Source: a virus. Taken from it: a stretch of 63,112 nucleotides of DNA. Made by a program: the position numbers and the translations under genes. Below are positions 21,699-58,810 of the stretch, piece after piece. The notes beneath the pieces were generated by a model. It did not search any database and was not told where the DNA came from. It was given only the letters and a program-made list of their open reading frames with translations. Positions within the stretch are counted from its first letter, which is position 1; each line of letters opens with the position of its first letter. Location of the stretch: positions 1-63,112 of the IMG/VR virus record IMGVR_UViG_3300043446_002177. One strand, written 5' to 3'.

Positions 21699-22340
21699 TT
21701 AGGCTTTTACTACAGATTCTACTAGATTTATACCCTCACCAAGGAACATTTTGACCATAGTAAGCGTTTTATCGTCTTTAACGTAGAAGTAATAACCACC
21801 CCAACTAGAGTTTTTGCTAAGGTATTTGGCAGCACTTTTAGTTAATCGTACCCGATCTTCTTTACCTGCACACCAGTTGACAAAATTACTATGGTTTTGT
21901 CTAGTTCGACCCATAGTAATTTTATAAGCATAGTCTAAACTTTTAACTAGAACTTTCTTGTCATCTAATAAATTTTCACTACCGGGCTCAGGAAGGCAGA
22001 CATATTTTACAAATTCGCTGTCAATCTTAGCTAATTTTTCTACATCTGCTTCATTATTAGTGTAAAGGTTAATATACGGACTCTCTACCCTAATAATAAA
22101 GTCGTGCATAGGGTTAATAGCAACGGATAGTTTAGTAGCATAATCAATATCTGTAGTTTTAAGTTTATTAACCCAAGCATAGGTAGAATTAGCAGCACCA
22201 GCTATATTTTTTTTAATAGCTGCCTTATCTCCGCCTCTAAACCAGCTGGCTGCTTTACTAAGCAGTACAATTTTATATTTGTACTTGCCGTTAAACAGCC
22301 TAATGGTCTGTTTAGTTTGAATCGACTTGTGCAGTTTCAT
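21699..22340 (-). CDS. Conserved phage protein downstream of clpA, unknown
   Basis: 213 residues, basic, soluble, mixed alpha/beta. Visible segments are RLFNGKYKYKIVLLSKAASW near the start, INLYTNNEADVEKLAKI in the middle and GGYYFYVKDDKTLTMVKMF near the end. No known motif. It overlaps clpA by 29 bases and ends at the terminator at 21677, so it forms an operon with dnaJ and clpA. A substrate adaptor for the Clp ATPase would fit the context but has no sequence support. Confidence 0.65.
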   Translation of the reverse strand: MKLHKSIQTKQTIRLFNGKYKYKIVLLSKAASWFRGGDKAAIKKNIAGAANSTYAWVNKLKTTDIDYATKLSVAINPMHDFIIRVESPYINLYTNNEADVEKLAKIDSEFVKYVCLPEPGSENLLDDKKVLVKSLDYAYKITMGRTRQNHSNFVNWCAGKEDRVRLTKSAAKYLSKNSSWGGYYFYVKDDKTLTMVKMFLGEGINLVESVVKA

Positions 22341-24567
22341 CTACTACCTTTGGTGTTTTTGTCTTAATTTTAAAGGCAATTTTACCTTCGTTAACCAAAA
22401 TATGCAATATGCCGCCTGATTTTAGTTCTCCAAATAGTAATTCTCTAGATAAGGGACGTTTAATTTCTTTATCAATTACACGCTGTAACGGACGAGCACC
22501 CATCTTCTTATCGAACCCCCGGTCAACTAACCAGTCAATAGCTTCGTCTGAAACTTTGATTCTAATACCCTTTTCTCTGATCTGTTCTGTAAGCTCATGC
22601 ATAAACTTGCCTACAATTTTAATCATTGTTTCTTTGCTTAGTTTACCAAATGTAACAACAGCATCTAAACGGTTACGAAATTCTGGTGCAAAAAACTTTT
22701 TAAGTTCCTTATCAGTGTAATCTTTTTCTTGTGCGCCAAAACCGATAGTATTCTTTTCTGCTTCTTGTGCGCCAGCATTAGTAGTAATGATAAGAATCAA
22801 GTTGCGGCAGTCTGCAACTTTACCATTTGATCCAGTAATAAAACCATTGTCCATCATTTGCAACAGAATAGTTGAAACGTCCGGATGGCTTTTTTCAATT
22901 TCGTCTAACAGTAGTACACAGTTAGGGCTTTCTTGAATCTTAGTAATTAGCAATCCAGCATTTTCTTCAAATCCAACGTAGCCAGGGGGACTACCGATAA
23001 GTTTAGCAACTGAGTGTTTCTCTTGATATTCGCTCATGTCAAATCGAACCAATTTAACACCTAAGTGTTTGGCCAGTGCTTTAGCAGTTTCAGTCTTACC
23101 AGTACCAGTTGGGCCCATGAATACAAAGCTACCAACGGGCTTGTTTTCTGGTTTAAGGCCAGCTTGGCTTACTAGGATCTTATCTACAATTTCTGTAATA
23201 GCAGTTTCTTGACCGTAGACTTCTTTTTGTAAATTGCTTTCTAAGTTAACTAAGTTGGCACTTTCCTGTTCTGCAATTTGTTCTGCCGGCATATTGACCA
23301 TTTTGCTCAATTCAAATTGAATAGCTGATTCGTCTACAACACGCTCGTCTGCCAATTTAAGATTAAAACGTGAGCAAGCACAATCAATAAGGTCAATGGC
23401 CTTATCAGGTAACTTCTTATCTGTTTGATATTTTACTGACAGCTTGACCGCAGCCTGTATAGCATCATCCTTAATCTTAACATTATGGTGTTGCTCATAG
23501 TACTTCTTAATACCTTTAAGAATTTGAATGCTCATCTCTGCCGTAGGCTCGTCAATGGTAATGCGTTGGAAACGACGCATTAGAGCACGATCCTTTTCAA
23601 AGTGCTTACGATATTCTTCCCAGGTTGTGCTGGCAATGACTTTGATATTACCTTTGCTCAGTGCAGGTTTCATCATGTTGGCAAGGTCGTTGGCATTGTT
23701 ATTTGCTGATCCAGCACCACTGATCATGTGTGCTTCATCAATAAACAGGATAGTTTTGCCTTTCTTTTCTAGACCTTTAAGCACCATTTTAAAACGTTCT
23801 TCAAAATCTCCACGATACTTAGATCCTGCTAGCATTGAACTAATGTCTAAATTGAATACTGTATACTCTTTTAAGAAGTCTGGTACAGCACCTTTGACAA
23901 TATTAAATGCCAAACCTTCTGCAATAGCAGTTTTACCTACTCCAGGATCGCCAACAAGGATCACATTGCTCTTACTTCTGCGACCTAGGCTTAGTGCTAC
24001 ATTTTCTAATTCTTCAATACGACCAATCACAGGGTCAACCTTATTTTTCTTAACTGCTTCGTTAAGGTTAGTAGTAAATGCTCTCAATGCTCTTTCCGCC
24101 TGTCCTGGTGCTGAGTCTTCTTCGTTACCTTCTGGTACTTCTGAATTTAAATAGTCTGCAAATTTTTCTTTATCAATCTCTGCCTGCTGAATATAATAAT
24201 TGGCATAGCTACGTTTTTCAGCCATCATAGCCATAAACACATCTGTAGGTTCAATTTTTTGACGACCATTGAACAAAACTTGTGTAAAAGCACGATTAAG
24301 CACACGTTCTACTGCTTGAGTCTTACGCGGCTTGACATTTTCTTGTTCGGTAACAATTTCGTCTAGTTTATTTTTTAGATACAGTTCTAAATTCTTTTTA
24401 AGGAAGTTAGCATCTGCACCGTAGCCAGTTACGCATTTGTGAAATCCTTCTTCACAGAGCATACTGAATAATAAGTGCTCTAGTGTAAGATATTCGTGTT
24501 TTAATTTTCTTGCTACATCAATTGCTTTTTCAAAGACCTGTTGTAGGTCACTGCTAGGTTCTACCAT
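22312..24567 (-). CDS. clpA: ClpA-like AAA+ unfoldase
   Basis: ClpA unfolds proteins and feeds them to ClpP. The 751-residue length and domain order match bacterial ClpA: an N-terminal Clp repeat domain (LTLEHLLFSMLCEEGF), D1 with Walker A GDPGVGKT near 206-213 and Walker B ILFIDEAH, D2 with GPTGTGKT and LLLDEIEKSH, and the sensor segment APEFRNRLD. The loop NTIGFGAQE corresponds to the IGL/IGF ClpP-docking loop, so it should still bind a peptidase; no clpP is in the window, so the host's is likely used. It may redirect host proteolysis during infection. Confidence 0.93.
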   Translation of the reverse strand: MVEPSSDLQQVFEKAIDVARKLKHEYLTLEHLLFSMLCEEGFHKCVTGYGADANFLKKNLELYLKNKLDEIVTEQENVKPRKTQAVERVLNRAFTQVLFNGRQKIEPTDVFMAMMAEKRSYANYYIQQAEIDKEKFADYLNSEVPEGNEEDSAPGQAERALRAFTTNLNEAVKKNKVDPVIGRIEELENVALSLGRRSKSNVILVGDPGVGKTAIAEGLAFNIVKGAVPDFLKEYTVFNLDISSMLAGSKYRGDFEERFKMVLKGLEKKGKTILFIDEAHMISGAGSANNNANDLANMMKPALSKGNIKVIASTTWEEYRKHFEKDRALMRRFQRITIDEPTAEMSIQILKGIKKYYEQHHNVKIKDDAIQAAVKLSVKYQTDKKLPDKAIDLIDCACSRFNLKLADERVVDESAIQFELSKMVNMPAEQIAEQESANLVNLESNLQKEVYGQETAITEIVDKILVSQAGLKPENKPVGSFVFMGPTGTGKTETAKALAKHLGVKLVRFDMSEYQEKHSVAKLIGSPPGYVGFEENAGLLITKIQESPNCVLLLDEIEKSHPDVSTILLQMMDNGFITGSNGKVADCRNLILIITTNAGAQEAEKNTIGFGAQEKDYTDKELKKFFAPEFRNRLDAVVTFGKLSKETMIKIVGKFMHELTEQIREKGIRIKVSDEAIDWLVDRGFDKKMGARPLQRVIDKEIKRPLSRELLFGELKSGGILHILVNEGKIAFKIKTKTPKVVDETAQVDSN

Positions 24568-24578
24568 ATTGTTACCTT

Positions 24579-25427
24579 TTAACTTTTTTCTATTTTACTA
24601 TAAAGTGATTGTAATTCACTAATTAATTGAGCGTCTGTCACTGCCGGAATAACAACTTTTACACTGATAAAAAAATTACCCTGCTGTCCAGTGTTTAAAT
24701 CTTTAAACCCTTTTCCGCTAGCACAAAAATCTGTACCGTGTTCTGTTCCAGGGCGCACTGACAAGTTAAGTGTAGTTCCATCTAAACACTTTACCGTTTT
24801 CATGCAACCAGTCATAGCCTCTAGTGCAGAAATGTTCATGTATGTCCATAGGTCATTACCTCGACGCTCATATTCGGGATCGTGTTCTACTACAACTTGT
24901 ACATTTAAATTACCCCTTGGTAAGTTTGGAATTGAATCATCCCCTAAGTTGGGGTATCTAATAGTCTGTCCACTGCTAACGCCTGCTGGTATATCAACAG
25001 CTACAGTTTGACTTTTACCTGTTGGTGTATTGTATCTTGCTTCTAATTGTGTGCCAGTATAACTTTGTTTTAGTGTAATTGATACACGTATAGTTAAATC
25101 TCTATTGCGTCTTTGTTGATGATGTGGATGACCACCAAATCCAGCGAATCCTTGGCCAAAATGAAATTTAAAAATATCATTGATATCGTGGAAACCGCCG
25201 CCCATACCGGCAGTGCCGCCAAATGGATTAAATCCATTACGCTGTGCATCATATTCGGCACGTTTATTTGGATCGCCTAATGTGTCGTATGCTTGCGAAA
25301 TTTCCTGAAACTTTTTAGTATCACCACCACGATCCGGATGATTTTTCATAGCCAGTTTTCTATATGCCTTTTGAATTTCGTCGGCGCTGGCTCCTTCTGA
25401 TATTCCTAATGTTTGATAGTAATCCAT
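24579..25427 (-). CDS. dnaJ: DnaJ-type co-chaperone (class B)
   Basis: 282 residues from the ATG at 25425-25427. The J domain is complete: MDYYQTLGISEGASADEIQK, then HPDRGGDTKKF with the HPD motif that triggers DnaK, then AYDTLGDPNKRAEYD. A Gly/Phe region follows, then two C-terminal substrate domains (TIRVSITLKQSYTGT and DLWTYMNISALEA). The CxxCxGxG zinc repeats are absent, as in CbpA. It heads the operon with clpA and starts six bases after a perfect -10 box, so its mRNA should be almost leaderless. It presumably recruits host DnaK. Confidence 0.93.
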   Translation of the reverse strand: MDYYQTLGISEGASADEIQKAYRKLAMKNHPDRGGDTKKFQEISQAYDTLGDPNKRAEYDAQRNGFNPFGGTAGMGGGFHDINDIFKFHFGQGFAGFGGHPHHQQRRNRDLTIRVSITLKQSYTGTQLEARYNTPTGKSQTVAVDIPAGVSSGQTIRYPNLGDDSIPNLPRGNLNVQVVVEHDPEYERRGNDLWTYMNISALEAMTGCMKTVKCLDGTTLNLSVRPGTEHGTDFCASGKGFKDLNTGQQGNFFISVKVVIPAVTDAQLISELQSLYSKIEKS

Positions 25428-25433
25428 AGCTAC

Positions 25434-25474
25434 ATTATACAAAAAAAATAGGACTGTGTCAAGACAGTCCTATT
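25434..25474 (-). promoter_or_regulatory. Terminator with embedded consensus promoter, upstream of dnaJ
   Basis: On the minus strand an 11-bp perfect stem (25447-25457 with 25464-25474), loop CTTGAC and a T8 run form a terminator for the gene ending at 25507. The loop and stem edge give TTGACA (25457-25462); the T-run is the 17-base spacer; TATAAT follows (25434-25439). The dnaJ ATG lies six bases further. Confidence 0.9.
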
Positions 25475-25506: not shown

Positions 25507-25707
25507 TTATTTCTTTTCTGGAACTTTTTCACCTTCTACTTTTTTGTGGACTTTAATTTTTTTACATTCTTGTATTACGGTACCGTCTGCTTTTTTAACA
25601 ACATTGCCTTTGCTATCTTTTTTATCGTTGCAAACTTCTTTAGTCTCGCCACCGGCAAATGCTGTGCCAGCTACACATAGTGCTAAAAGTGCTAATATTT
25701 TTTTCAT
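25507..25707 (-). CDS. Small secreted protein
   Basis: 66 residues. A clear signal peptide, KKILALLALCVAGTAFA, is cut at about residue 18-19. The mature part is Lys-rich, hydrophilic and has two Cys (EVCNDKKDSKG and IQECKKIKVHKK), likely a periplasmic disulfide. It lies beside the lysis genes and ends at the dnaJ-side terminator. Function unknown. Confidence 0.65.
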   Translation of the reverse strand: MKKILALLALCVAGTAFAGGETKEVCNDKKDSKGNVVKKADGTVIQECKKIKVHKKVEGEKVPEKK

Positions 25708-34524: not shown

Positions 34525-34751
34525 TGTGTCGCCTTAAAGTGTTCTTTAATTTTTTTAGTTATTTCTTCTGCTATACCAGCGGCACGATCTGCATCGTATG
34601 TAGTATAGATATGTTTATTATAGTTTACTGGGTCGGCGATAATTTTAAGAACATCGTCAATAATTAATTCAGCAAACTTTTCGTAATCGATTTGCTTAAC
34701 TGCATAATGGCTATAGCATTCCATTAGCATTACTTGTAATTTTTCATTCAT
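34521..34751 (-). CDS. Small acidic helical protein
   Basis: 76 residues, helical and soluble (EKFAELIIDDVLKIIADPV, then AAGIAEEITKKIKEHF). It overlaps gp44 by 4 bases and the 82-residue gene by 4 bases. Its position directly upstream of gp44 suggests a replication-linked role; it is too small and unlike gp62 to be called that. Unknown. Confidence 0.55.
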   Translation of the reverse strand: MNEKLQVMLMECYSHYAVKQIDYEKFAELIIDDVLKIIADPVNYNKHIYTTYDADRAAGIAEEITKKIKEHFKATQ

Positions 34752-34996
34752 ACTATTTCCTCTACTATTCCTAAGATTTCAGCTAGAATAAGCAACGCAC
34801 CGCAGACAACCAACGAGCCCATAATAAGGCTGGCCCCCGCCGCAATTCGTACAGCACTTTTGCAAACACTGACATAAAAATGTCCCTTGCTTGTATCTTT
34901 GGGTTGAATTTCTATCATAGGTTTATGGTGTGGACAACGTCCTTGTTGGTAGTCGCATAACGGACTATATTGTTTATGACAAAGTTGACATTTCAT
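34748..34996 (-). CDS. Cys-rich membrane protein, leaderless start
   Basis: 82 residues. The N-terminus has a zinc-ribbon-like set, MKCQLCHKQYSPLCDYQQG then RCPHHKP. The C-terminal third is a hydrophobic span of about 30 residues (ASLIMGSLVVCGALLILAEI). The ATG at 34994-34996 lies six bases after a perfect TATAAT, at the expected transcription start, so the mRNA has essentially no leader. It is the first gene of the gp44 run. Confidence 0.6.
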   Translation of the reverse strand: MKCQLCHKQYSPLCDYQQGRCPHHKPMIEIQPKDTSKGHFYVSVCKSAVRIAAGASLIMGSLVVCGALLILAEILGIVEEIV

Positions 34997-35002
34997 CTCT
35001 AC

Positions 35003-35039
35003 ATTATAGAGATTAAAAAAGGGTCTGTCAAGACCCTTT
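35003..35039 (-). promoter_or_regulatory. Terminator with embedded consensus promoter, upstream of the gp44 run
   Basis: On the minus strand a 9-bp stem (35018-35026 with 35031-35039) and T6 run terminate the MazG-like transcript. TTGACA (35026-35031) spans the loop, the T-run lies in the 17-base spacer, and TATAAT is at 35003-35008. The next ATG is six bases on. Same design as at 25434. Confidence 0.92.
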
Positions 35040-35042
35040 GGT

Positions 35043-35456
35043 TTAGAATGTACCTATATCCTGAGGGGGAGGAATATATCCATTTCCTTGTTCTGTAAAC
35101 GGTGCTAGATTTGGCGCGACCCACCCTAATGGTTTGAGGACTTTGCCGTCCTCACGTTTGCGAACCTTTCCAGTTTTGATATCAATTTTAGAAAAGTTAG
35201 TACGCATAACTTCTTTCCATGCACCTTCAGCATCGAAGCCGCCGCTGTGTATTGCACCAATAGTAACAACAAGAATATCAATTAGTGCATCAAGCTGTTC
35301 CACCCTGTCACCAGATGCTAGAGCTTGCTTAAACTCGTCATTATATTCTTCTTCAATAAGATTGCAATAAAGTTTATACTGTGTTGGGTTTAGCTCACCT
35401 ACGGTTTGATCGCAGGCTCGCATAAATTTTTCTTGATCGCGAAACGGATTTGTCAT
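35043..35456 (-). CDS. MazG-like nucleotide pyrophosphohydrolase
   Basis: 137 residues of the all-alpha NTP-pyrophosphatase group. The metal site is EEEYNDEFKQAL followed by EQLDALIDILVVTIGA (the ExxE...ExxD pattern). The C-terminal segment FSKIDIKTGKVRKREDGKVL is typical of the phage MazG-like form. It would cleave non-canonical or excess dNTPs, or alarmones as proposed for cyanophage MazG. It overlaps the gp31-like gene and ends at the terminator at 35039. Confidence 0.8.
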   Translation of the reverse strand: MTNPFRDQEKFMRACDQTVGELNPTQYKLYCNLIEEEYNDEFKQALASGDRVEQLDALIDILVVTIGAIHSGGFDAEGAWKEVMRTNFSKIDIKTGKVRKREDGKVLKPLGWVAPNLAPFTEQGNGYIPPPQDIGTF

Positions 35457-36050: not shown

Positions 36051-36551
36051 TTATCTTAGGAATTCTCTCCAGTCTAAATTATATTTTAAACTGTTAATTT
36101 TATGAATACCAATTAAGTATAGCACATAACTGGCTACTGAACTACCCCTGCCTACACCCCAAACGATACCGTTATTTCTAAGTGTATCTACAATATATTT
36201 TAGTGCAAACAGCAGTTCAAACATGCCTAATTTTACAAAAGCTTCTAATTCTTCGTCAACACGTTGTTTTTCTGCATCCGTTGTGCATTGATCATATAGC
36301 CAGGGTATAAGATTAAAATTTTTGTATTCTTCCGGTATAAACCAATTTGACTGATTAGCTTCGTCAAAAAATTCTAAATTTTCGTAAGAGTCAACCGACC
36401 TTGGAGAAATTTCGGCCTGTTTAAATAGTTTGTTAATATCTTCGCTAGGGTCTACAAAAATTTGACTAAGATATTCTGTCTGTCCTCGGTAAAACAGATT
36501 GAAAATATCTCGTTCTTGAAATATAGGATTACCAAATTGATCTGATCTCAT
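36051..36551 (-). CDS. DnaE-like (DNA polymerase III alpha) fragment protein
   Basis: 166 residues. The last 35, WGVGRGSSVASYVLYLIGI followed by LKYNLDWREFLR, match the palm-entry segment of bacterial DnaE (GPGRGSxxGSLVxYxLxIT...L.FERFL) and then stop. In DnaE the catalytic Asp residues come just after this point, so polymerase activity is not expected. The N-terminal part is helical and acidic. Its ATG lies six bases after a promoter -10 box. It may bind a host replication partner; it is probably a domain remnant put to new use. Confidence 0.65.
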   Translation of the reverse strand: MRSDQFGNPIFQERDIFNLFYRGQTEYLSQIFVDPSEDINKLFKQAEISPRSVDSYENLEFFDEANQSNWFIPEEYKNFNLIPWLYDQCTTDAEKQRVDEELEAFVKLGMFELLFALKYIVDTLRNNGIVWGVGRGSSVASYVLYLIGIHKINSLKYNLDWREFLR

Positions 36552-36557
36552 TCAACT

Positions 36558-36586
36558 ATTTTAGTTGACATTGATCAGTTTGTCAA
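36558..36586 (-). promoter_or_regulatory. Sigma70 promoter for the DnaE-like gene
   Basis: TTGACA (36581-36586), a 17-base spacer and TAAAAT (36558-36563) on the minus strand, then six bases to the ATG at 36551. The -35 box is inside the 3' end of the upstream gene. Confidence 0.8.
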
Positions 36587-50500: not shown

Positions 50501-53500
50501 GTTTTGAAGTCCTCTAAAAATAATATTTTGATTATCAGACAGAGCATAAGCAAGACCACTGCTTAACCTATTATCGTTACCTGTAGAAGATAGACCTACT
50601 TGTAGTACTTCTAAACCACCAAACACTGTACCACCAGATGTATATGTGGTAAACGTTGTACTGTCGACAGCAGTTGCCAATGTGGCATCGGTATATAACT
50701 GAACAGTTGTTGTACCGTTGACTTTAATATAATATAAGCCATCAACTTGTGTCATACCACCGACGCCGCTGATGTTAATCAAATGTCCGCTTTGATAATG
50801 ATGTGCTTCTGTAAATGTTACCTGTGCAGGACTTGCTTTACTGATAGCACTTACACTATAAGTAATCTTTTCATAGAGCGTACCACCTTCGTAGGCAGTA
50901 CCTGATCCAGTTCCAACACCGCTGGCTGTAAATCTAGTGCCTGGATTACTGTTAGCAGCACCTACTAGTGTAAAGTTAGTAGTGCCAGCCGATAAAATAA
51001 TGTATTCTCTACCTACTACAAAACTACCAGCAGTTACTCCAGTATAGGCACTGGGTGCAGTAAATGTACCAGTGTATCCACTTGTATCTAAAGGTGTGCT
51101 GAATACGCCTGTGCTTGAATTATAATTTGTGTATATTTCAGCAGTATTGTATGTTAATGGTTTAACATAGTACTTACTGCCATTAAATGCAGCACTGCTA
51201 CCGTTCCAGAATACACCGGTCATTCTAATTCTATCACCAGCATAGAATTTTATACTACCAAAAATGTAACCACCAGATGTATATGTACCATATAATGAAC
51301 TGTCAACTGGACTGTTTAATGATGCATCTGCATACAGACCAAACGTAGTAGTTGAATAGCCGGTAACTTTGACATAGAATGTTGCATTGTTAATTTGAGT
51401 CATGCCGCCAACATCAGATATATTGATAATATCTCTATCAACAAATCCGTGAGCAGAAGAAGTAGTTATGACACATGGAAATGCCTTGGTGGCTCCTGTT
51501 ATAGTAAGCGGTACAGTAGCAGTCATTGGTCCTCCGCCACTATTTGTACCGACAGTAAATGCAGTTGTACTATTTTTTACTGTGCTAATACTAAATTGTG
51601 TTGCAGTAAATCCGCTCATTACATAATAAGTAGTTCCTATAACAATGTTGCTACCAGTTAATGTAGTGCCAGCAAATACAATAGGCATACCAGCATATAA
51701 TGTTGATGTGCTAGCTACTGTGATTAAATTACTACCTGTTGCTGTAACACTTAGTGAATTAAAAAATCCGCTGCTGCCTAATGTAACAACAGCAGTAGAG
51801 GCCTTACTCATACCAGTTACGCGATACTCGTATTGGCTTTGATTGATACCAGTTCGCTGTGCAGTGGTAACTTCATAACGAGCAATAGTACCGTTACCGT
51901 GATCAACTTCCATTTCACTTACACGGTCTGGAATAAAGCTATATCTCTTAATGTAAAGTATTAAATCTGCCGATTTACTTGTATTACTGTAATCTCCGTA
52001 TCTATAGACTTTGGCAGTCTGTGTCATATTGTTAAACAGTGTAACAGCATCTGGAAGTTCAGTTGGATCTGAGCCGTCCGCTTTTAAACCATATATACCG
52101 TTGGCATTAGAACCTGCAACACTTCGGACCTGGCCGCCTTTGCTGGCATAATATGCTGTATAGCAGTAGTAGGTAAATGTTGAAACTTGTTCTGTTAGAC
52201 CAGCATTGTGCGCTACAATACCGTAACCTAAATCGTTAACCTGAGTGTAATCGTTGGCCAACATGCTACGATTGCCTGGAGTTTCTAAAATAATATCTAA
52301 ATTACCGCCACTCCACGGTGTACTTGGATTTAGGTTTAAGGTAGCTATGCCAGAAATAGAATTCCAACTGGCAACGTTATCGACTTGATATCTGAAACCG
52401 TTATAGTAAAAAGAAGTAGGAGCAATAGGCCTACGTTTAGTCAGTCCTGATACTGTTAATAATAATCCTGCCCCGGCAGTTGCGGTAATTGTAGCAGTTA
52501 ATCTACCAGAGAAACCGTCAATAAACATACCGCCACCAAAGTTCTGTTGGTTCTTACTGCCCATGAAAGATGCACTTTCTTGTACATATGGACTCTTGCT
52601 ACCAATTGAACCACTTGGATCTAACACACACATGAATCCGCCGTGTCCTTGACCAGTGATATTACTGATACGAACTGCATCATTAAACATGAATGCATCT
52701 AAATCTTTGTTATTCTTTGGCGGGTTGTAAGCTGGATCAAATGCAAATGCTACAGTTCCAACTAGGTTGGCTACAAGAGTTGGTGTTGGAGTTTCGGTCG
52801 TTATTGTAGTATTAATAACTTGATTAACAGTTCCACGCTTAGGTGGTGTTGTTAGTGCTGTTAATAGAGTATTGGTAATAACTTTTTGTGCTACAGTATT
52901 AATATAGTTAATACCTGCAATACACTGTACGCTATTAACTATACTACTGCTATTGTAAAAAGATAATGCAGCATTGACTACAGCAGCTTTGCCCCCAGTT
53001 TTTAAGTCGCTTATAATTGCATCTACAATAATACCTGTGTCTCGCAACGATTTAGATTGATTAAAAACATAAGAAGGATAAGTTGCAATAATATATGCTA
53101 ATACTTCAGCTTTGATAAACTCTTTGTTTTGTTCAATTAACTTAGCTGCATTTACATAGCTGCCAGCATTAGAATAACTAGTGCCAACGTTCATTGTAGT
53201 AGCAGGATTCTTTAGATAATGATAGCCATATTCTGGAGAGTCGTAAGGGCCAAAGGCACTGATTAGATTGCTTAGACCATTTGTAATAACACTACTAACA
53301 GCAGTGAGTAAAGAACTGGCTTTAGTCTTTGCTGTACTTTCAGTAAATCCTGGATTAATTCTAGCAGTACCAGAACCTGAACCAGTACCAGTAGCAGTAA
53401 AGCTAACACCAATAGTGTTAGAAGCAGCACCAATTGCAGTAAAACTTGTAGTACCAACAAATGTAATTGTATAGCGTTGTCCAACAACAAAACTACCTGC

Positions 53501-57474: not shown

Positions 57475-57747
57475 ATGTTCAAAACAATTAAAGAATTTTT
57501 GTTTGGTAAATTACCCGAACAAAAAGCATCAGAGGCACCATACAAAGTTGAGGCACCTGCACCCGTAGCAGTTCCAGAGTCTATTCCAGCACCTGCTGTA
57601 GTTGAGGTCGCACCAACTTCTGCACCAGAACCAGCAGTTGAATCAAAGCCCGCTGCTACAAAAGCCAAGAAAAAACCCGCTGCCAAAAAGCCAGCGGGTG
57701 AAAAAAAGCCTCGTACGCCTCGTAAGCCTAAATCACAAAAGGCTTAA
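57475..57747 (+). CDS. Pro/Ala/Lys-rich small basic protein
   Basis: 90 residues. A short amphipathic start (MFKTIKEFLFGKLPEQ) is followed by Ala/Pro/Val-rich spacer and a Lys-rich tail (ATKAKKKPAAKKPAGEKKPR) like the tail of histone H1-type proteins. It has an ideal AAGGAGG site and an exact late promoter, so it should be abundant late in infection. DNA binding or compaction in the head is plausible. Its last 15 bases overlap uvsE. Confidence 0.6.
   Translation: MFKTIKEFLFGKLPEQKASEAPYKVEAPAPVAVPESIPAPAVVEVAPTSAPEPAVESKPAATKAKKKPAAKKPAGEKKPRTPRKPKSQKA
57670..57699 (-). terminator. Terminator for uvsE transcripts inside the opposite gene
   Basis: On the minus strand ACCCGCTG pairs with CAGCGGGT (57675-57682 with 57692-57699) and is followed by TTTTTT. 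It stops leftward transcripts after the uvsE stop while being read as Lys/Pro codons on the plus strand. Confidence 0.8.
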
Positions 57748-58776
57748 ATCTTTTGCCTGCTGATGCAAAGCAAAGCTGGCTAGGTTCTTACCTTTAGACT
57801 CGCACATAATATCGTGTGTTTCTAAAAACTGTAGAGCCCACTCATTAACTGCGGTGTTCCAATAGAAATCACTATGGGCCCGCAGTTTTTGTTTTTTGTG
57901 TCCAGACTCTAGTAGACTAGTATAGTCTGGAATTACACCAGTGTCGTGACCCACGAGATAATCTTCACGGCTGACAGAATAGTGGCAAACAGGGCGAACC
58001 CCGCGCCAAGACTGAACCACAGCTTGGACGCGAGGGTCCACGGTGGTAATGTACTCTCCCGTCTTACACCAATGATGATGAATATCGAGTACGATAGGAA
58101 CGAGATCAACCAACTTAATGCAATCATCTAACCCCCAGGCGTTTTCTTCGTTTTCGATTGTAATTGTGTTACGGGCTTCTGGACTGAGTCTCTTATAGGC
58201 GAGTCTAATACCTTCTGGACCGGCTCTACCCGAGATGTGGACGTTGATTTTAAAGTCCTGAAATTGTTTACCAAAACCCATCCAGCTGGCCATAGTTGCA
58301 TGATATTCAAATTCCTCAATAGATCGGTTTACAATATCAGGGTCAGCAGATGCCAACACGCAAAACTGACCAGGATGGAAACTAAGGCGAACACAATTCT
58401 GGCGAGCCAAATCTCCCACTGCTCTGAAATATCGCTCTGCGTAATCTCTGACATCGGGTAGTCTATAGAACCACGACCAGCTAGGCTCAGTGAACACAGG
58501 AAGGATATCGCTACTGAGTCGTACCATTCTAAGATTTTCATCTAATGCACCTACCTTTTCAACTAGCAAGCGAGTAGACTCAATGTTACCTTTCATAAGG
58601 TCCCATAGCTTTTCGGCAGCTACATCCTTGCTCTGTCTATTTAACCATGCAACGGTAGTAGTACCAGTATTATATTTTTTACAATCATCTTTGGGTTTAA
58701 TGCCATCAACTTGCCGCGGCTCGTCGATCCATTTACAAGCAAAACCAATATGCTTAGTGTGTGAAAAGTGTGTCAT
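57733..58776 (-). CDS. uvsE: UV damage endonuclease UvsE/UvdE
   Basis: UVDE cuts DNA 5' of UV dimers and starts repair. The 347-residue protein has the TIM-barrel signatures: VRLSFHPGQFCVLASAD, INVHISGRAGPE, ITIENEENAWGLDD and VPIVLDIHHHWC, whose Glu, His and Asp hold the metals, and VCHYSVSR. It covers the usual length. The ATG is five bases after a perfect -10 box. With dps and sod it completes a damage-protection set fitting sunlit water. Confidence 0.93.
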   Translation of the reverse strand: MTHFSHTKHIGFACKWIDEPRQVDGIKPKDDCKKYNTGTTTVAWLNRQSKDVAAEKLWDLMKGNIESTRLLVEKVGALDENLRMVRLSSDILPVFTEPSWSWFYRLPDVRDYAERYFRAVGDLARQNCVRLSFHPGQFCVLASADPDIVNRSIEEFEYHATMASWMGFGKQFQDFKINVHISGRAGPEGIRLAYKRLSPEARNTITIENEENAWGLDDCIKLVDLVPIVLDIHHHWCKTGEYITTVDPRVQAVVQSWRGVRPVCHYSVSREDYLVGHDTGVIPDYTSLLESGHKKQKLRAHSDFYWNTAVNEWALQFLETHDIMCESKGKNLASFALHQQAKDLSLL

Positions 58777-58781
58777 AGTTT

Positions 58782-58810
58782 ATTATAACAGGTCTTATAG
58801 ACCGTGTCAA
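58782..58810 (-). promoter_or_regulatory. Consensus promoter five bases from uvsE
   Basis: TTGACA (58805-58810), 17 bases, TATAAT (58782-58787) on the minus strand, then five bases to the uvsE ATG. A short inverted repeat (GGTCT/AGACC) fills the spacer, a possible operator. Confidence 0.88.

Follow-up and report, generated by a model that had tools for sequence, protein, structure and literature searches.

The window (the whole stretch of 63 112 nt that was analysed) is a 63-kb virus contig encoding a T4-type DNA polymerase (phrog_262) and a gp44-type clamp loader (phrog_168) as well as, according to profile searches, a ClpB-like ATPase, DnaJ and a Cpn10-like protein. The nearest named polymerases were those of Sinorhizobium phage Phosso (50%) and Agrobacterium phage Atu_ph07 (46%), followed by polymerases of jumbo phages of the GAP32/121Q kind; we characterize the group to which the phage belongs as aquatic T4-related phages.

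The dnaJ gene of the window (24579..25427, minus strand; Pfam domains DnaJ and DnaJ_C) is followed by the gene of the ClpB-like ATPase (22312-24567, profile matches) and preceded by a gene for a small Lys/Cys-rich protein (25507..25707, minus strand) that ends in ...KVHKKVEGEKVPEKK and has a counterpart before dnaJ in most relatives. Searches of Pfam and PHROG gave no match for this small protein; its N-terminus, judged by eye, is signal-like, and it is a neighbour of dnaJ even in distant phages. In Phosso and Atu_ph07 dnaJ is also located near a Clp ATPase gene, and there it begins almost immediately past the gene before it, leaving no room for an intergenic module.

Upstream of dnaJ the minus strand from 25474 to 25425 reads AATAGGACTGT-CTTGAC-ACAGTCCTATT, TTTTTT, G, TATAAT, GTAGCT, ATG; all the elements listed in the original prediction (11-bp stem, loop CTTGAC, T-run, TATAAT, six bases and ATG) are thus in place. 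We assign 25447..25474 to a terminator hairpin with a 6-nt loop, after which six more T follow (25441-25446). The RNA folds with -14.7 kcal/mol (z -5.2), better than all 200 shuffles, and the arms covary in relatives. The sequence has what is expected of a rho-independent terminator: a G+C-containing hairpin, an immediate T-run and a stop codon close upstream. The combined promoter and hairpin scan placed a promoter with 12 of 12 consensus positions in the same stretch. Its -35 hexamer TTGACA (25457..25462) extends from the hairpin loop into the 3′ arm, of which it takes the first base, just as had been proposed, and its -10 hexamer is TATAAT (25434..25439). The spacer between them (25440..25456) has the predicted 17 bases; it is made not of the T-run alone, as first thought, but of the 3′ stem arm, the T-run and a G (CAGTCCTATTTTTTTTG). 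Promoters were scored against the E. coli sigma70 consensus, which may not be that of the host. The ATG of dnaJ (25425..25427) begins 6 nt past the -10 hexamer, at the expected transcription start, and this start codon is fixed by conservation of the DnaJ N-terminus, MDYYQTLG being common to the window and its relatives. A search of the 63-kb record for TTGACA-N15..19-TATAAT-N6-ATG gave two matches only, the modules at 25425 and 34994, while the reversed pattern gave none in the same record; a nucleotide search with the module region as query returned no match in the phage collection.

The second module, at 35039-34994, has a 9-bp stem, the loop TGAC, a 12/12 promoter with spacer 17, N6 and ATG, so that the same design does recur at 35003 as claimed. 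Its putative terminator hairpin AAAGGGTCT-TGAC-AGACCCTTT with the T-run occupies 35018..35039 (minus strand), and the RNA (-11.8 kcal/mol, z -3.0) again folds better than all 200 shuffles; TTGACA lies at 35026..35031 and TATAAT at 35003..35008. The hairpin comes directly after the stop codon of a MazG-like pyrophosphohydrolase gene (35043..35456, minus strand), and 6 nt past the -10 hexamer begins an ORF of 82 aa (34748..34996, minus strand) for which a search found no family match. The product of this ORF starts with MKCQLCHKQYSPLCDYQQGRCPHHKPMIEIQPKDTSKGHFYVS, and its counterparts in L164 and L196 start at MEIQPKDTS(R/K)GHFYVS; by this comparison the window carries a leaderless form with an extra Cys/His-rich (zinc-finger-like) N-terminus.

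Two more promoters of the window lead directly into a start codon. One, TTGACA-N17-TAAAAT-N6-ATG (36549..36586, minus strand), has no terminator-type hairpin and precedes an ORF of a DNA polymerase-type PHROG (36051-36551); similar leaderless promoters and N-termini are found in three related contigs (G005, G008 and G011). The other, TTGACA-N17-TATAAT-N5-ATG (58774..58810, minus strand), leads an endonuclease-type ORF (57733-58776), and its spacer is an imperfect palindrome (ACGGTCTataAGACCTGT). In total, four of the seven promoters of the window that match 11 or 12 of the 12 consensus positions are leaderless, with starts at 25427, 34996, 36551 and 58776.

We consider, with a probability of about 0.8, that the two modules are composite elements in which an intrinsic terminator and a sigma70-type promoter would together insulate the next gene, often with a leaderless start, and which, like the promoter-early stem-loops (PeSLs) of T4-type phages, would be located at gene-shuffling borders. 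RNA polymerase coming from the upstream gene would transcribe both arms and the T-run and terminate within what is, in the DNA, the spacer of the promoter. Host-type RNA polymerase would then bind the same DNA, with the -35 hexamer in the hairpin loop and the -10 hexamer past the T-run, and, judging from the spacing, would begin transcription at the A of the ATG. Having neither the hairpin nor a 5′ leader, the new message would be translated as a leaderless mRNA. It is reasonable to hold, as was originally argued, that the use of the hairpin in RNA and the use of the promoter in duplex DNA do not clash. The terminator-promoter and the leaderless start would be two separable features coinciding at these modules, with the composite placed where downstream genes are swapped, as PeSL cassettes are.

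Comparison of the dnaJ junction among relatives revealed two overlapping layouts. In type A, with the -35 hexamer in the hairpin, the geometry is conserved, which the original prediction had called for: there are nine such junctions (window included), all with spacer 17. In type B the terminator hairpin has the -10 hexamer in its loop; it is present at eight junctions, again all with spacer 17, and its T-run extends close to the ATG of dnaJ, located 19-27 nt past the -10. A weaker case is L152, with a 3/6 match at -35 and no T-run. Type B was first judged by eye; a script then assigned nine loci, the weak L152 among them, and missed L138 and L139, which have mismatched stems. Since the expected start of transcription in type B falls inside the 3′ arm, a message begun at this promoter would lack the 5′ arm, and the terminator would therefore spare it. 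The loci L123-L125 have another upstream gene and no hairpin, and keep TATAAT-N6-ATG before dnaJ. The leaderless start of dnaJ is kept at 50-63% protein identity. On the DnaJ tree the layouts are clustered, with about three changes each; each layout may have had a single origin.

One could suppose that what we see is a plain tandem of terminator and promoter squeezed together by genome compaction, without functional coupling. The relative L126 speaks in favor: its hairpin at the dnaJ junction stands apart from the leaderless promoter that comes after it. Both functions could work independently; on the other hand, the overlap is found again in a second layout and with unrelated arm sequences. 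We regard this explanation as rather unlikely, although it is largely compatible with the composite terminator-promoter proposed above.

A second alternative is that the palindrome overlying the -35 hexamer is no terminator at all and would serve as an operator bound by a protein. Overlap with -35 is usual for a repressor site, and palindromes in promoter spacers with no T-run do occur in relatives and in RB49. To assess the pairing itself, we took from public viral contigs a set of 230 distinct promoters with a T-run. Among the matches listed, 57 had a hairpin covering the -35, while joining the upstream arm of one site with the downstream arm of another gave a mean of 5.2 and a maximum of 13 over 100 rounds. 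The 57 hairpins carry 52 different arm pairs; it is therefore the pairing that is kept and not the sequence, unlike what an operator for one protein would show. Furthermore, the 3′ arm leads into a T-run, and where the hairpin has shifted with respect to the promoter, as it has at the dnaJ junction, a T-run still comes after it. In our opinion an operator is improbable. As for the composite design, type-A hairpins with a T-run occurred eight times in 14 contigs (the window and 13 related contigs), while shuffled versions with intact hexamers gave 0.05. A scan for the complete design found at least 112 distinct sites; a hairpin was present in 25, of which 21 open an ORF of 50 or more codons (the two of the window included).

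To locate translation starts with respect to promoters, we used these 14 contigs, with 191 promoters of at least 11/12 matches, and recorded ATG-led ORFs of 50 or more codons. Offsets 5, 6 and 7 after the -10 hexamer hold 6, 17 and 3 ORFs, with a background of ∼1 per offset; there are nearly none at offsets 9-16, and ORFs come back at 17-36, a distance that would fit leaders of the Shine-Dalgarno type. Several relatives have common ancestry, so these counts are not independent events. In a stricter set, made of contigs picked by protein homology only (the window and two contigs found by promoter pattern were left out), offset 6 holds 13 ATG-led ORFs where 0.88 would be expected (P about 1e-11); one ORF is at 9-16 and 65 are at 17-35; at offsets 5-7 the start codons were ATG in 19 cases, GTG in none and TTG in one. 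In viral contigs at large, among the matches listed, the ATG after N6 opens an ORF of 60 or more codons in 63% of cases, and that after N8-N16 in 25%. The N6 counts in the set of 230 promoters are inflated by the search pattern of the complete design and were kept out of this argument. Promoters with the -35 in a hairpin are leaderless more frequently than others (4/10 versus 15/158, Fisher P 0.016), in a small sample that includes the dnaJ relatives. The window's modules have what is characteristic of leaderless genes: ATG at the expected +1 after the -10 hexamer, no Shine-Dalgarno leader, and AUG rather than GUG or UUG. Comparison with relatives thus favors the original claims that the ATG is at the expected +1 and that no ribosome-binding leader precedes it, and leaderless starts appear to be real in this phage group. 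In RB49 only 1 of 72 promoters is leaderless, and in 121Q 1 of 118; the habit is therefore specific to the lineage.

The promoter could be real and its message still have a leader, if transcription started farther upstream or if translation used an internal or coupled site. A transcription start can indeed shift by a few bases. Still, starts that pile up 5-7 nt past the -10, nearly disappear at 9-16 and are almost all ATG, along with the DnaJ N-terminus fixing the start codon, leave this account little chance. Finally, 9/12 promoter matches are near the shuffled expectation in AT-rich phages, but the idea that the terminator alone is functional and that hexamers and N6-ATG arose by chance is hardly credible: a 12/12 promoter with spacer 17 lies in each of the two terminators, ATG starts peak at offset 6, and spacer-17 promoters are kept in two layouts across the dnaJ family.

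At the 35003 junction the exact cassette AAAGGGTCTTGACAGACCCTTT stands directly after the stop codon of one and the same gene (MazG-like in the window, and ending in ...EDGKVLKPxGWxPPELAPFVSK in most relatives) and is followed by seven different downstream genes. Some begin 6 nt past the -10 (MKCQLCHK in the window, MGFKKNW, MKIGFTCSTFDL and MTNLYSDF), others 18-21 nt past it after an AGGA-type leader (MWRVRYY, MEIQPKD and MLFALG). The same hairpin-promoter is combined with a Shine-Dalgarno-type leader at seven loci (L158, L159, L162, L164, L193, L195 and L196). With a constant cassette and varied next genes, the terminator-promoter belongs to the junction, and each downstream gene brings a leader or none. 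Gene order at this junction is that of a gene-shuffling border: a constant flank and an exchanged neighbour. The idea of one module fusing terminator, promoter and start codon thus stands in part: the fusion of terminator and promoter is backed by comparison, while the module is divisible, as the hairpin-promoter and the leaderless start each vary without the other. We also considered the hairpin and the leaderless start as one inherited unit and rejected it, as relatives keep either feature alone (L123-L125 the start, the L158-type loci the hairpin).

The PeSL cassettes of T4-type phages were reportedly treated by Arbiol in 2010 and Comeau in 2014. As cited in PMC4503421, PeSLs occur in T4-type phages RB49/phi1, PST and nt-1 and mediate gene shuffling. 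Like the element considered here, PeSLs combine a sigma70-like promoter with an intergenic stem-loop at the borders of exchanged genes in the T4 superfamily. The window's modules have this composition, an intergenic sigma70-like promoter with a stem-loop terminator. In RB49, presumably the PeSL type phage, our scan detected ten spacer-palindrome promoters, one with -10 in the loop and none with -35 in the hairpin; the layout differs from that of the window, where the hairpin holds the -35 and starts are often leaderless, while in RB49 nearly all starts have leaders. Palindromes of this kind (17 bp, e.g. TTGACAGGACCTTCGGGTCCTGTTATAAT), with Shine-Dalgarno-type leaders and no T-run, were also seen in related contigs G012, G007, G011 and G005; these may be operators, cruciforms or terminators. 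In T4 and nt-1, taken as positive controls, the strict test found no overlap of promoter and hairpin.

Escherichia phage 121Q is closer in layout. Each of two scans found three sites with -35 in the hairpin, and there was one clear case of -10 in the loop (98698, 102122, 110561 and 238009; 52055). As in the window and its relatives, either a hairpin encloses the -35 and precedes a T-run and the -10, or the -10 is in the loop; unlike those of the window, the 121Q overlaps are followed by a leader wherever a gene start could be assigned, and none is leaderless. At 52055-52110 of this culturable phage (KM507819, the record of L414) a 16-pair stem surrounds TATAAT and is followed by TTTTTAATG. Among bacteria, the -10 box of TA-led genes closely precedes the ORF, with little or no 5′ UTR (PMC3160421), and in Deinococcus the -10 motif is located a few bases before the ATG (PMC12340547). 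Those genes are cellular, while here a full -35/-10 consensus is within a phage terminator. Translation of leaderless mRNAs is spared by kasugamycin (PMC5230787). In the literature on leaderless phage early promoters and on terminator-promoter overlaps we found no paper on this design. The composite terminator-promoter is a known idea, from PeSLs; the combination of a -35 in the hairpin with a frequent leaderless start is new.

One could speculate, at somewhat less than even odds, that such a junction is a plug-in border, where any gene arriving with its ATG 6 nt past the -10 would become both insulated and leaderless. The terminator would be placed either before the start or, with the -10 in its loop, astride it, so as to stop transcripts born upstream but not those that begin at the promoter; lineages would have swapped these layouts at the same junction.

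These observations make a case, based on sequence, for systematic leaderless expression in T4-related phages. They indicate that a terminator and a promoter can occupy one stretch of ∼40 bp and that their arrangement can vary at a given gene junction. The form with -10 in the loop predicts a terminator that would act only on transcripts born upstream, and the pattern of constant upstream and variable downstream genes ties the cassettes to gene turnover.
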